Positions 8,358 to 11,919 of a DNA stretch of 40,670 nt are shown here, piece by piece. A program made the translations under genes and the position numbers. The stretch spans positions 1 to 40,670 of the forward strand of contig CALFUP010000268.1 of assembly GCA_937929875.1 (NCBI GenBank). The letters run 5' to 3'. A model generated the notes under the pieces. It ran no database searches and had not been told where the DNA came from. It saw only the letters and a list, made by a program, of their open reading frames with translations. This stretch comes from an uncultured Cocleimonas sp. GTDB taxonomy: Bacteria > Pseudomonadota > Gammaproteobacteria > Thiotrichales > Thiotrichaceae. Positions within the stretch are counted from its first letter, which is position 1, and every line of letters starts with the position of its first letter.

Positions 8358-8627
8358 CTATAGTCTGTCGATAACATCCTGAACGGTATCACCTGTTTCG
8401 ACTGCTACAGGTTCTGCATCTGCATTACCAAATAAGCCGCTGATATCTGAACGTAACATGGCAGCATCATCTATCGCTACGGATTCGTCGTTTCCAGTTT
8501 TAGAAGAATATGCTTGAACGCCTGCTTTCACCCCAGTAACGCCATTGTTGTTGCTAGAACTTCCGTTGAAACAGCCTGATAAACCTAATACAGAAACTAC
8601 GCCAATTGTGATTAATTTAATTTTCAT
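8358..8627 (-). CDS. Small lipoprotein encoded after the DUF4331 gene
   Basis: An 89-residue protein with a lipoprotein signal: MKIKL, a hydrophobic stretch, then the lipobox LSGC. After the cysteine comes a Ser/Asn-rich linker (GSSSNNN) and an acidic C-terminus (VAVETGDTVQDVIDRL). The frame extends ten codons upstream, but the ATG at 8627 has a good AAGGAG seven bases away and begins the signal peptide. That Shine-Dalgarno lies in the 13-bp gap after the DUF4331 stop codon, so the two genes form an operon ending at the terminator at 8269-8305. No family recognised; I infer a membrane-anchored partner of the DUF4331 protein. Confidence 0.8.
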   Translation of the reverse strand: MKIKLITIGVVSVLGLSGCFNGSSSNNNGVTGVKAGVQAYSSKTGNDESVAIDDAAMLRSDISGLFGNADAEPVAVETGDTVQDVIDRL

Positions 8628-8640
8628 TTTTGACTCCTTA

Positions 8641-10137
8641 TTAGTTAGACGTTGCACCAGCGATTGGTGTTGTTACGTATGGGAATACTGCATCAAACTG
8701 TGTTGCATTTTGTACCACACCGTCAGTAATTGCTAACTCACCCGATGGAGCATCTGCTGGAACACATAAATCTAATGGTAGGTGACATAACACACCCATT
8801 GATACTCGTAATGCAGCATCGACCGTATCATCACCAGGACGACGACCGTTCGGGAAGCCCGCATTATCACCTGCAACGACACCAAAGTTACTTTGGCTAG
8901 CTTTAGGCGTTGGTGCAATGTTGGTATTCAAACGTTGCATTTCTGCTAATGAACCATTCTTATTAACGCCAATGAAGCCCGTTAGGAATGTAGCGACTAA
9001 GTCTGGACGATCTTTAACTGTTGGTGGCACTACGCCAAATAATACGCCTAGCAACTGTGGGAGCGACGGGCTGAATACGTAATCAGCAAACTGCAAGTCA
9101 TCTTTTGGCTCGCTTGAATTAAACTTATTTTTATCTGGAAGACCAATAACTACTTCATTAACTAACGGCATACTGAGTCTTGAAACCTGCGTCCAAGCAC
9201 CACTACTAACTGCGGGTTGACCGAAAGTAGGTGTAGGATCAATGATTCGAACCTGTGGCAAACTTGCCGTTGTCCAAGCACCAATAATGCCATTCTCGTT
9301 GCCACCTGTTAAACAAGCGATGGGAACTTCTAATGCAATACTCGTTACGTTCTTATCTGCTAGGTCATCATTTTCTGCATCTGTTGCGCCTAGTGGATTG
9401 GTGTTAACTAAATCGAATATCTCGCCCAAGTTGACTGAAAATGAATCTTTACGTTGACCAACAAACACACGGCCATCTTGCGAACCTGTAGGACAGGCAG
9501 ACAGTGTTACATCATGAATAAATGTTTTTGCATAGGCATCATAAGACTCAGTGCCAAAGGTCTTATTACCCACATTATCAAAAGGCTTAGTAAAAATGCT
9601 GTCGCCTGAGTTTGCTGATATAACAGCAGATTTTGTGCCAGTGCGGCGATCGCCATCAACCATTGTTAGGTTGAAGGTTTCTTTAAAGTTGAGAGCACTA
9701 TTATCTGCCGAAGTGATACCTCCAATGTTTTTTAATGGAACAGCGATATCTTTACCATCAATCGGAAGAGTAATGCCTTTGCCGTCATTGCCTAACATGT
9801 TTTGAAAGTCGAACTGGAATGTCACGTCTTCAACTGCATCGCCATTATTATCAACATGAATTTCATATAGAGCATCAGCTTCTAATGGAAAATAATTAGG
9901 TCCACCATAAGCATCTTGTAATGGATTATAATTTGCAATCAGAGTGACATAACCTTCTCTACCCGTTTCATAGCTTCTGAACATATAGAAGTCCGTAGCG
10001 TCGACTCTTGGGTTAGAGGTGATGAATGGAGCTTCACGATGACTAGATGCAGAAGCTGTGGTAATTGTTGCTGTACCTGTAGCAGCAACCAATGTAGCTA
10101 GCAGTGTTTTTTTGATATTGCTTGAGAGTGTTTTCAT
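8641..10137 (-). CDS. Exported DUF4331 domain protein
   Basis: A 498-residue protein with a Sec signal peptide (cleavage near ASA30) and the hallmarks of DUF4331: SHREAP (residues 32-37) then DATDFYMF (46-53), and a C-terminal FDAVFPYVTTP. The family is secreted or periplasmic and has no established biochemical function. The start is supported by GGAG seven bases upstream. It is the first gene of an operon with the small lipoprotein. A bipartite promoter-like element identical in layout to the one upstream of the ECF sigma gene is centred about 80 bp before the start (10202-10231), so I infer control by the neighbouring ECF sigma factor and its cupin anti-sigma factor. Confidence 0.93.
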   Translation of the reverse strand: MKTLSSNIKKTLLATLVAATGTATITTASASSHREAPFITSNPRVDATDFYMFRSYETGREGYVTLIANYNPLQDAYGGPNYFPLEADALYEIHVDNNGDAVEDVTFQFDFQNMLGNDGKGITLPIDGKDIAVPLKNIGGITSADNSALNFKETFNLTMVDGDRRTGTKSAVISANSGDSIFTKPFDNVGNKTFGTESYDAYAKTFIHDVTLSACPTGSQDGRVFVGQRKDSFSVNLGEIFDLVNTNPLGATDAENDDLADKNVTSIALEVPIACLTGGNENGIIGAWTTASLPQVRIIDPTPTFGQPAVSSGAWTQVSRLSMPLVNEVVIGLPDKNKFNSSEPKDDLQFADYVFSPSLPQLLGVLFGVVPPTVKDRPDLVATFLTGFIGVNKNGSLAEMQRLNTNIAPTPKASQSNFGVVAGDNAGFPNGRRPGDDTVDAALRVSMGVLCHLPLDLCVPADAPSGELAITDGVVQNATQFDAVFPYVTTPIAGATSN

Positions 10138-10201: not shown

Positions 10202-10231
10202 ATTACGCAAGCTTCGAAAAAATCGGATTCA
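10202..10231 (-). promoter_or_regulatory. Candidate ECF-sigma promoter of the DUF4331 operon
   Basis: On the minus strand: TGAATCC (10225-10231), 18-bp spacer beginning GAT, then GTAAT (10202-10206) preceded by GC. The same TGAATCCGAT/GCGTAAT pair with the same spacing stands before the ECF sigma gene (11630-11659). Predicted 5' leader about 60 nt. The -35 resembles the TGATCC element known for the RpoE-ChrR (ECF11-type) class; that comparison is from memory. Confidence 0.72.
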
Positions 10232-10264
10232 TTTTTTTTAGTTTTTTTATTTTAACGAGAAATC

Positions 10265-10280
10265 TCACTTCATGAAGTGA
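10265..10280. promoter_or_regulatory. Perfect 16-bp palindrome upstream of the DUF4331 operon
   Basis: TCACTTCATGAAGTGA is a perfect inverted repeat about 35 bp upstream of the candidate ECF promoter. It could be an operator for an additional dimeric regulator. No second copy was noticed. Confidence 0.35.
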
Positions 10281-10347
10281 AGTAAATCTCTTCTAGTTAG
10301 AGGTAACTTGTCGGCATGTTAGAGTCATATTTCATTGAATTTCGGGT

Positions 10348-10380
10348 AAAAAAAATCACAGATAAAACTGTGATTTTTTT
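10348..10380. terminator. Bidirectional Rho-independent terminator after the anti-sigma gene
   Basis: AAAAAAATCACAG, loop ATAAAA, CTGTGATTTTTTT: a 13-bp stem flanked by A and T tracts that works on either strand. It lies about 40 bp after the anti-sigma stop and separates the sigma/anti-sigma transcript from the DUF4331 operon, so the two units are transcribed independently. Confidence 0.88.
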
Positions 10381-10420
10381 AAATATTGTTGATGAGTTAG
10401 ATGTTTTAACTCAAGGAAAG

Positions 10421-10915
10421 CTATACCGGTAAAGCGCCTCGCATGAATGCAATACACCCAGTTTTTGTACTGACCTTACCGTGGGTTACTCCTGCTGCTG
10501 CAAAATGAAAATCACCTGCATTTAATTGAATGTCACCAAGACTAAGGTCGCCTTCCAGCATCAAGGTTTCCTCATCAAAGGGATGACCGTGACCTTCCAT
10601 TTCGAAACCTGGCTCGAGTCTAATTAAGTAGGATAAAAGACTGTCCGGAATGGTTATATCACCGTGTAATACTTTAAAACTACCTCCTGGAAAAGCTTCA
10701 ATCCAACCATCTGTATCAGATGCAGCGACAAGATCAAAACCTGCTTCTAACGGGGGATTTTCGATTCCAGATTGTGGCAACTTAATCTTAGACATTAAAT
10801 TATTACGCATGCGCAACACTGTTTCATCATCAATCTCAACAGGATCATGTGCCTCTGCCAACATTTCAAGAATGTCGTCATCAAGGGTATTAGGATTGTC
10901 ATCATGCTTTTTCAT
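10421..10915 (-). CDS. Cupin anti-sigma factor, ChrR-like, without N-terminal zinc finger
   Basis: A 164-residue protein predicted to bind and restrain the ECF sigma factor encoded just upstream. The N-terminal third (ILEMLAEAHDPVEIDDETVLRMRNNLMSKI) resembles the short sigma-binding helix region seen before cupin domains in such regulators. The C-terminal half is a ChrR-type cupin with candidate metal ligands H109, H111, E115 and H145 (HGHPFDEE...VTHG). The usual zinc-binding HxxxCxxC of ChrR is absent; the only cysteine is C154. The frame can also start at 10927, but GGAGGG five bases before the ATG at 10915 favours MKKHDD. It overlaps the sigma gene by 14 bp, implying translational coupling. 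Confidence 0.85.
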   Translation of the reverse strand: MKKHDDNPNTLDDDILEMLAEAHDPVEIDDETVLRMRNNLMSKIKLPQSGIENPPLEAGFDLVAASDTDGWIEAFPGGSFKVLHGDITIPDSLLSYLIRLEPGFEMEGHGHPFDEETLMLEGDLSLGDIQLNAGDFHFAAAGVTHGKVSTKTGCIAFMRGALPV

Positions 10916-11495
10916 AAATCCCTCCATTTCTTAGATCTTCCCGAGATAAGGTTTCTTTTAAAATTAACTGCGCGCGACGAATATTTGATTTAACTGTACC
11001 TATTGGGTCACCCGTATATTCACTAATTTCGCTTTGTGTCATATCTTTGTAAAAGGCTAAAAATATAGCCTGTCGTTGCTTATCTGTTAATAACTGTAAT
11101 GCTTCGTAAACTCGGCTTTCGACATCAATACCATGGACCTTGGTAAAGGATGTTTCTGTTGATTCATCTTCGCTTCTATTTGCATCAAACTCACAGCTGT
11201 TATTATTTATCTGTGGTCGCTCTCTACGTAATGTGTCCAATGCTCGGCTTCGACAAATCATCAACATCCAAGCTAAAGGTACTGCTCGTGACGCATCAAA
11301 ATCTTTAGCTTTTTTCCATACTTGCATAAAAACATCACCAACAACTTCCTCAGCTAGCTCTGGTTTTAAAACAATTTTAATTGCTAAACCATAGACGCGG
11401 TTGACAACAGCATCGTATAACTCAGCCAAGGCAGTTTCATCACCGTCTTGAATTCGAATGAGTAAATCTACTAATGGATCTTTTTCTCGCTCCAC
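10902..11495 (-). CDS. ECF-type RNA polymerase sigma factor
   Basis: A 197-residue sigma-70 family factor with only regions 2 and 4. Region 2: ALAELYDAVVNRVYGLAIKI through EVVGDVFMQVWKKAKDFD, then PLAWMLMICRSRALDTLRR. Region 4: LTDKQRQAIFLAFYKDMTQSEI, then GTVKSNIRRAQ, the -35 recognition helix. Start is GTG at 11495 with AGGAG seven bases upstream. It is co-transcribed with the overlapping anti-sigma gene, the standard arrangement for membrane- or metal-signal controlled ECF factors. A promoter-like element shared with the DUF4331 operon lies at 11630-11659, so autoregulation is likely. Cupin-type anti-sigma partners are associated with oxidative or singlet-oxygen stress, but the signal here is unknown. 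Confidence 0.94.
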   Translation of the reverse strand: MEREKDPLVDLLIRIQDGDETALAELYDAVVNRVYGLAIKIVLKPELAEEVVGDVFMQVWKKAKDFDASRAVPLAWMLMICRSRALDTLRRERPQINNNSCEFDANRSEDESTETSFTKVHGIDVESRVYEALQLLTDKQRQAIFLAFYKDMTQSEISEYTGDPIGTVKSNIRRAQLILKETLSREDLRNGGIYEKA

Positions 11496-11629
11496 TTCTT
11501 GTCTCCTGAAAAGGATGTCTACAATGAGAATTTATAGTATAGGAGACTTTTACTCTAAGTCACTATGACTTTCTCTTTTATAAACAGATCATTAGAACAA
11601 GTTTTTAAGTGATTTCACATATATTTCAC

Positions 11630-11659
11630 ATTACGCTGGTGATTCCAATATCGGATTCA
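11630..11659 (-). promoter_or_regulatory. Candidate autoregulated ECF-sigma promoter
   Basis: On the minus strand: TGAATCC (11653-11659), 18-bp spacer beginning GAT, then GTAAT (11630-11634) preceded by GC. Same words and spacing as at 10202-10231 before the DUF4331 operon, while the rest of the spacer differs. It would give a leader of about 125 nt before the GTG start. Confidence 0.72.
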
Positions 11660-11715
11660 AATTATTATATAAATAACTGAAAATCATCTAGTTAACTGAT
11701 AAGAGGGCTAACTAG

Positions 11716-11785
11716 AAATGACACCCCCCCACTTTTTAAGTGTTATCTAAGGAAAATAGCCTCAAATAGTAGGGGGGTGTCATTT
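11716..11785. repeat. Intergenic repeat copies 4 and 5 as an inverted pair
   Basis: Left arm at 11716-11737 (AAATGACACCCCCCC then ACTTTTT) and right arm at 11764-11785 (AAATAGTAGGGGGG then TGTCATTT) are near-perfect inverse complements around a 26-nt loop, 70 bp in all. The layout resembles a miniature element with terminal inverted repeats. Confidence 0.9.
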
Positions 11786-11919
11786 CTACTTTCCTCAATA
11801 CAAACCATCGATAAAGCTTAGCAAGAATACTCAACAGAACTGTCATTTTTATTCATTCTACGTTGTAACTTAACGATAGAGACTTTTTTTCGTAAAGAGG
11901 TAGATTGTAACAAGGTAAT

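Follow-up and report, generated by a model that had tools for sequence, protein, structure and literature searches.

The locus and its two transcription units

The window, by which we mean the whole 40,670-nucleotide stretch of DNA from an uncultured Cocleimonas sp. that was analysed, carries on its minus strand a sigma-cupin operon and a DUF4331-lipoprotein operon. The features of the locus are the following.

8358..8627, minus strand: small lipoprotein, co-transcribed with the DUF4331 gene, with the lipobox LSGC and an ATG start at 8627
8641..10137, minus strand: DUF4331 protein of 498 aa with a signal peptide (PF14224, 1.3e-140)
10039..10047, minus strand: codons for Ser31-Ser32-His33, which follow an AxA site and form the predicted N-terminus of the mature protein, a candidate ATCUN motif for Cu or Ni
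10202..10231, minus strand: predicted promoter of the DUF4331-lipoprotein operon, TGAATCCGATTTTTTCGAAGCTTGCGTAAT (exact match), with the −35 element TGAATCC at 10225-10231 and the −10 element CGTAAT at 10202-10207
10349..10380, minus strand: intrinsic terminator between the two transcription units, with a 13-bp stem and a T-run
10421..10927, minus strand: ChrR-type cupin protein of 168 aa, a probable anti-sigma factor (Cupin_7, 2.7e-11)
10902..11495, minus strand: SigK-like ECF sigma factor of 197 aa with a GTG start (Sigma70_r2, 7.5e-13; r4_2, 2.7e-11)
11630..11659, minus strand: predicted autoregulatory promoter of the sigma-cupin operon, TGAATCCGATATTGGAATCACCAGCGTAAT (exact match), with the −35 element TGAATCC at 11653-11659 and the −10 element CGTAAT at 11630-11635

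The sigma gene likely starts at the GTG at 11495, which has AGGAG upstream, and its end is overlapped by the cupin gene (10421-10927), which was absent from a preliminary description of this DNA. The DUF4331 protein scored 469.9 bits against PF14224, for which the gathering score is 27, and covered positions 1-421 of the 421 in the profile. The terminator is AT-rich and is flanked by the cupin gene and the DUF4331 promoter; the 91-nt terminator region folds at −19.4 kcal/mol with a z of −6.6 versus shuffles, congruently with the earlier claim of a strong terminator between the units. The predicted leaders are roughly 125 nt long for the sigma gene and roughly 57 nt for the DUF4331 gene.

We also observed an inverted repeat at 11710-11791, between the sigma promoter and an ABC permease gene, with 31-nt arms that are 87% complementary and lie 20 nt apart. 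Its core, AGAAATGACACCCCC, occurs in 11 copies on 9 contigs of the window's genome (reversed control, 0), and the element is a dispersed palindromic repeat.

Promoter sites in the window and its genome

Two minus-strand sites with cores 18 bp apart had been reported at this locus, and both are present to the base at the coordinates listed above, the distance from TGAATCC to GTAAT being exactly 18 bp in each. As had also been noted, one lies before the ECF sigma gene and the other before the DUF4331-lipoprotein operon. We scanned the assembly (3.25 Mb in 328 contigs, 87% complete) for several forms of the promoter pattern. The form TGAATCCGAT-N11..15-CGTAAT, with 16 fixed bases and five spacings, is expected to match ~0.008 times by arithmetic; it gave 2 matches, both of them the window sites, and 0 in the reversed control. 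The looser AATCCR-N14/15-GCGTA again returned only these two sites, with 7 matches in its reversed control. The earlier observation that the window holds no other such pair therefore extends, for these two patterns, to the assembly, in which each of the two sites precedes one of the two transcription units. The loosest form, TGAATCC-N14..19-GTAAT, matched 11 times in the assembly, indicating that the specificity resides in the GC before GTAAT and in the narrow spacing. Since only two sites were found in this genome, the local regulon may consist of the two operons plus any that lie in its missing part.

Conservation of the locus in the Thiotrichaceae

A search of 57 genomes identified the cupin protein in 16 and DUF4331 in 17. 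Among 36 family genomes, 13 carry both, 3 the cupin alone, 2 DUF4331 alone and 18 neither, a co-occurrence with a Fisher p of 2e-5 for genomes that are related and not independent. The genes of the locus mostly stay close together across the family, in an order and on strands that vary (tandem, divergent or convergent), and the same loci were found in Leucothrix pacifica, L. arctica, Thiothrix eikelboomii and Cocleimonas. In G003, G012 and G030 the sigma-cupin pair is present and no DUF4331 was detected.

For the family-wide comparison we defined a site as AATC[C/T]-N14..18-CGTA within 350 bp upstream of a gene, a pattern with a background of 0.027 per 350 bp, and discounted several matches that lay inside genes. 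Such a site was found upstream of DUF4331 in 15/15 DUF4331-carrying family genomes, at a distance of 48-118 bp from the start, and likewise before the sigma gene in 10/15; in the remaining 5/15 loci the 350 bp scanned before the sigma gene held no site. One of these five loci (L038) has a divergent region in which only the DUF4331 site was found. Comparison of orthologues, proposed in the preliminary description as a check, thus showed that the motif pair is kept in the family, and it recurs in Proteobacteria and in a Planctomycetota MAG. In Leucothrix pacifica (G028) the sigma gene is split over two frames (L044:7192-7786) and the cupin, DUF4331 and promoter are kept; a second ECF sigma gene lies nearby, beside an RskA-type gene (L117:2928-3431), and has a similar upstream site, TAAATCT...GCGTA.

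Other genes of the relatives are associated with the site. It precedes a cytochrome P460 lipoprotein gene in 4/4 genomes with a close orthologue, with TGAATCC in all four, and all four carry the sigma factor. A gene for an alpha/beta-hydrolase lipoprotein lies directly beside sigma-cupin in G019, G025, G030 and G035. In G020 it stands between the cupin and DUF4331 genes and is immediately preceded by a site, in G003 and G008 it is beside the P460 gene, and in G022 it is alone under its own site. In one case each, the site was associated with an exported protein resembling DsbH/thioredoxin (L103) and with a lipoprotein that has NHL repeats (L100).

Conservation beyond the family

We then took the best 80 DUF4331 loci of a collection of named genomes, which span Gamma-, Beta- and Alphaproteobacteria, Corallococcus, and MAGs labelled Planctomycetota, Saprospiraceae and Acidobacteria; in many of them a related ECF sigma gene lies within a few kb. 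We searched 70 DUF4331 upstream regions from outside the family for spaced word pairs, making no use of the window motif. The best pairs combined GCATC, CATCC or ATCCA with CGTA, and GCATC..CGTA was present in 25/70 regions versus 0/198 control windows. The distant motif, TGCATCC...CGTA, is the same promoter with TGC replacing TGA. A combined pattern, itself partly shaped by the same data, matched 55/80 DUF4331 and 16/46 sigma upstream regions against a background of ~0.03 per region, a very large contrast, for which the nominal p-value is nevertheless not to be read at face value, the relatives not being independent. Many of the other DUF4331 loci carry RskA_C anti-sigma genes, where the window has the cupin gene instead; going by gene content, the module appears to occur with two kinds of anti-sigma factor, the cupin type of the window and the RskA type.

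The sigma factor and its cupin partner

Among solved structures, the window sigma was nearest to SigK of M. tuberculosis, followed by RpoE of R. sphaeroides, and its best NCBIfam model was SigK, at 139 bits, below the curated cut-off of 226. In a maximum-likelihood tree the ChrR-linked sigmas and R. sphaeroides RpoE formed one clade (99/96) that does not include the window sigma, and the cupin-linked DUF4331 sigmas formed another (99/94). The latter adjoins the RskA_C-linked sigma group, with weaker joint support.

Cupin_7 was matched by 14/14 aligned relatives of the window cupin protein, and both HxH histidines, the Glu and a His further along are conserved among them. The N-terminal region has no Cys in the window protein or in its aligned relatives, which are therefore without the zinc anti-sigma (ZAS) motif. 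Against the ChrR family TIGR02451 the window protein scored 25.3 bits, the cut-off being 124.5. Its structure model was fair overall, with low confidence in the N-terminal helices; the predicted fold resembles ChrR, but no better than it does other cupins. Based on the position of its gene and on the precedent of ChrR, the overlapping cupin protein is probably the anti-sigma factor. In a Planctomycetota MAG (L160) the cupin protein is longer, owing its size to an additional region at the N-terminus.

The DUF4331 protein and its neighbours

His33 is invariant in 81/81 aligned DUF4331 proteins, and a signal-peptidase-like site, with small residues at −3 and −1, ends right before S/A-S-H in all 81/81. 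The motif after this predicted cleavage site is Ser-Ser-His in 78/81 proteins and Ala-Ser-His in 3/81. NH2-Ser-Ser-His is a textbook ATCUN site for Cu(II) or Ni(II). Cleavage at the predicted position, before Ser-Ser-His, would give the ATCUN pattern, and cleavage two residues later (between ASS and H) would instead expose a His as the first residue. Conserved cysteines are Cys215 and Cys275, in 78/81 of the proteins, and Cys451 and Cys458, in 69/81. Sequence searches returned no solved structural relative of DUF4331, and an AlphaFold model built with 14 close relatives was of low quality (pLDDT 46).

Relatives of the small lipoprotein adjoin DUF4331 in most family loci. The small lipoproteins that follow DUF4331 differ in sequence and have in common a C-terminal signature, L..DI..LFG.AD.EP..V; in the distant DUF4331 loci the small lipoproteins are different ones, and these contain a comparable DEP element.

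Among the best 80 DUF4331 loci, HupE/UreJ_2 genes were present in 42, TPR genes in 37 and DUF4198 proteins in about ten. The HupE proteins of these loci mostly have an apparent N-terminal His after an AxA site, some of their starts being uncertain. The window operon is without HupE and TPR genes; the two HupE genes of the window's genome lie elsewhere and have no good promoter site, and a check for a link between them and the regulon found none. At L198:1790-5512 the same genome encodes one HupE/UreJ protein together with a DUF4198-like protein, whose sequence begins with AHEMW, and two small exported proteins rich in His; this cluster is without the promoter motif and may be a separate metal-uptake locus.

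Discussion

The conservation of the promoter, the linkage of the genes and the export signatures are read directly from the sequences compared here. We consider it very likely, on that basis, that the locus is a self-amplifying ECF switch in which the sigma factor drives its own operon and the DUF4331-lipoprotein operon; the preliminary description had reached the same proposal, which gains support from the conservation of the motif before orthologues. Against it stand the five family loci in which no site was found before the sigma gene, the split sigma gene of Leucothrix pacifica, and the three genomes with sigma-cupin in which DUF4331 was not detected. In the mechanism that we envisage, the SigK-like sigma would be held inactive by the overlapping cupin protein, an inhibition that we infer, and the cupin would sense a signal, probably via its metal-binding pocket. 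Once released, the window sigma would recognise TG[A/C]ATCC-N17-CGTA promoters and raise the expression of both operons, which the terminator would keep separate, and the products of the regulon would act outside the cytoplasm. In the relatives, the same promoter would also serve the P460 lipoprotein, and the alpha/beta-hydrolase lipoprotein has its place beside sigma-cupin or under a site of its own.

This arrangement resembles SigK-RskA, known with its target mpt83 as ECF18 in M. tuberculosis and as ECF19 in Yersinia enterocolitica (PMC7509140). The sigma sequence is nearest SigK, an RskA_C anti-sigma gene is found in many DUF4331 loci, and in both a self-contained cassette comprises sigma, anti-sigma and a target that is exported or lipid-anchored and is preceded by a sigma site (PMC7509140). 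Unlike in SigK-RskA, the putative anti-sigma factor of the window is a soluble-type cupin, and DUF4331 takes the place of a fasciclin protein as the target.

The preliminary description had pointed instead to RpoE-ChrR, and the window shares with these systems of Rhodobacter and Shewanella (PMC6852236, PMC4336711) a cupin-type partner next to the sigma gene, predicted autoregulation, the −10 CGTAAT and related −35 letters. Of that likeness, the relation of the −35 to TGATCC stands, but the promoters are related, not the same: mapped Shewanella ECF11 promoters read TGATCC-N16-CGTA (PMC4336711), whereas that of the window reads TGAATCC-N17-CGTA, its −35 being one base longer and its spacer 17 rather than 16. 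An ordinary RpoE-ChrR (ECF11) response to singlet oxygen or peroxide, in which the promoter had diverged and the target was unusual, would account for the ChrR-type partner and for a −10 like that of the Shewanella RpoE2 promoters (PMC4336711). We consider it unlikely, because the sigma is nearer SigK and falls in a clade other than the ChrR-linked one, the cupin is far below the ChrR cut-off and is without the ZAS motif and any N-terminal-region Cys, the targets differ, and no photolyase, cfa or similar core ECF11 target is among the motif-associated genes found. Given the position of the sigma outside the ChrR-linked clade, the different promoter and the low ChrR score of the cupin, we rejected the assignment of the window sigma to ECF11; the system would be best described as SigK-like with a cupin anti-sigma factor, a class defined by nearest relatives and tree rather than by a numbered ECF group. 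It is far less probable still that the common words arose by chance or are a duplicated DNA element and no promoter. Only two copies occur in the window's genome and their spacers differ, as such an origin would allow, but the motif is conserved before orthologues despite shuffled gene orders and was recovered in distant loci independently of the window motif.

The regulatory part of our proposal is strong, and what the response is for is a matter of weaker inference. As the mature DUF4331 protein would begin with Ser-Ser-His and the operons often carry HupE/UreJ permeases, the products of the regulon may have a role in periplasmic metal handling or protection. This proposal is weakest for the window operon itself, which has neither HupE nor TPR genes, the two HupE genes elsewhere in the genome having no good promoter site. 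Nickel binding by DUF4198 proteins has been demonstrated, and the name anglerases was given to HupE/UreJ-2 proteins that have His at the N-terminus (PMC12537917). DUF4331 would resemble both in having a His-based metal site at the N-terminus directly after the export signal, predicted in its case, and genes of both kinds are found near DUF4331 in other bacteria. Unlike theirs, its His would be third (the predicted ATCUN pattern) unless cleavage occurs two residues later, and DUF4331 is not among the families named in the passages of that paper considered here. We put forward, tentatively and as something that may well prove otherwise, that DUF4331 proteins are periplasmic Cu/Ni proteins with an N-terminal ATCUN or His site, controlled by SigK-like ECF sigmas with cupin or RskA partners and often accompanied by HupE/UreJ, in a previously unrecognised metal-handling or metal-protection response. 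A little short of an even chance is the reading in which the regulation is as described and the response is to oxidative or nitrosative damage of the envelope, with DUF4331 in repair or scavenging and Ser-Ser-His as a structural element. Cytochrome P460 among the targets of the relatives, the DsbH/thioredoxin-like exported protein of one genome and the resemblance of the cupin sensor to ChrR, a singlet-oxygen responder (PMC6852236), are consistent with such a response, but it leaves unexplained the ATCUN-type spacing after an AxA-like site in 81/81 proteins and the frequent HupE and DUF4198 neighbours. The two roles could overlap.

A search of 5.39 million open-access papers turned up no mention of DUF4331 or PF14224, although the control term DUF4198 was found, and it turned up no paper that connects DUF4331 with an ECF group. 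The neighbourhood may already be listed under one of the existing ECF groups in subscription papers or in supplementary classification tables. As far as we have seen, the kind of system is known and the combination and the target are new. A probable regulator can now be named for the DUF4331 family, along with its promoter sequence and operon partners, and there is a biochemical idea that is open to test; the specificity of the promoter is sufficient for regulon prediction in sequenced genomes. Our results further suggest that the output of one sigma-promoter-effector module stays the same when the sensor, cupin or RskA, is exchanged, which would make the module a useful case for the evolution of signalling modules.
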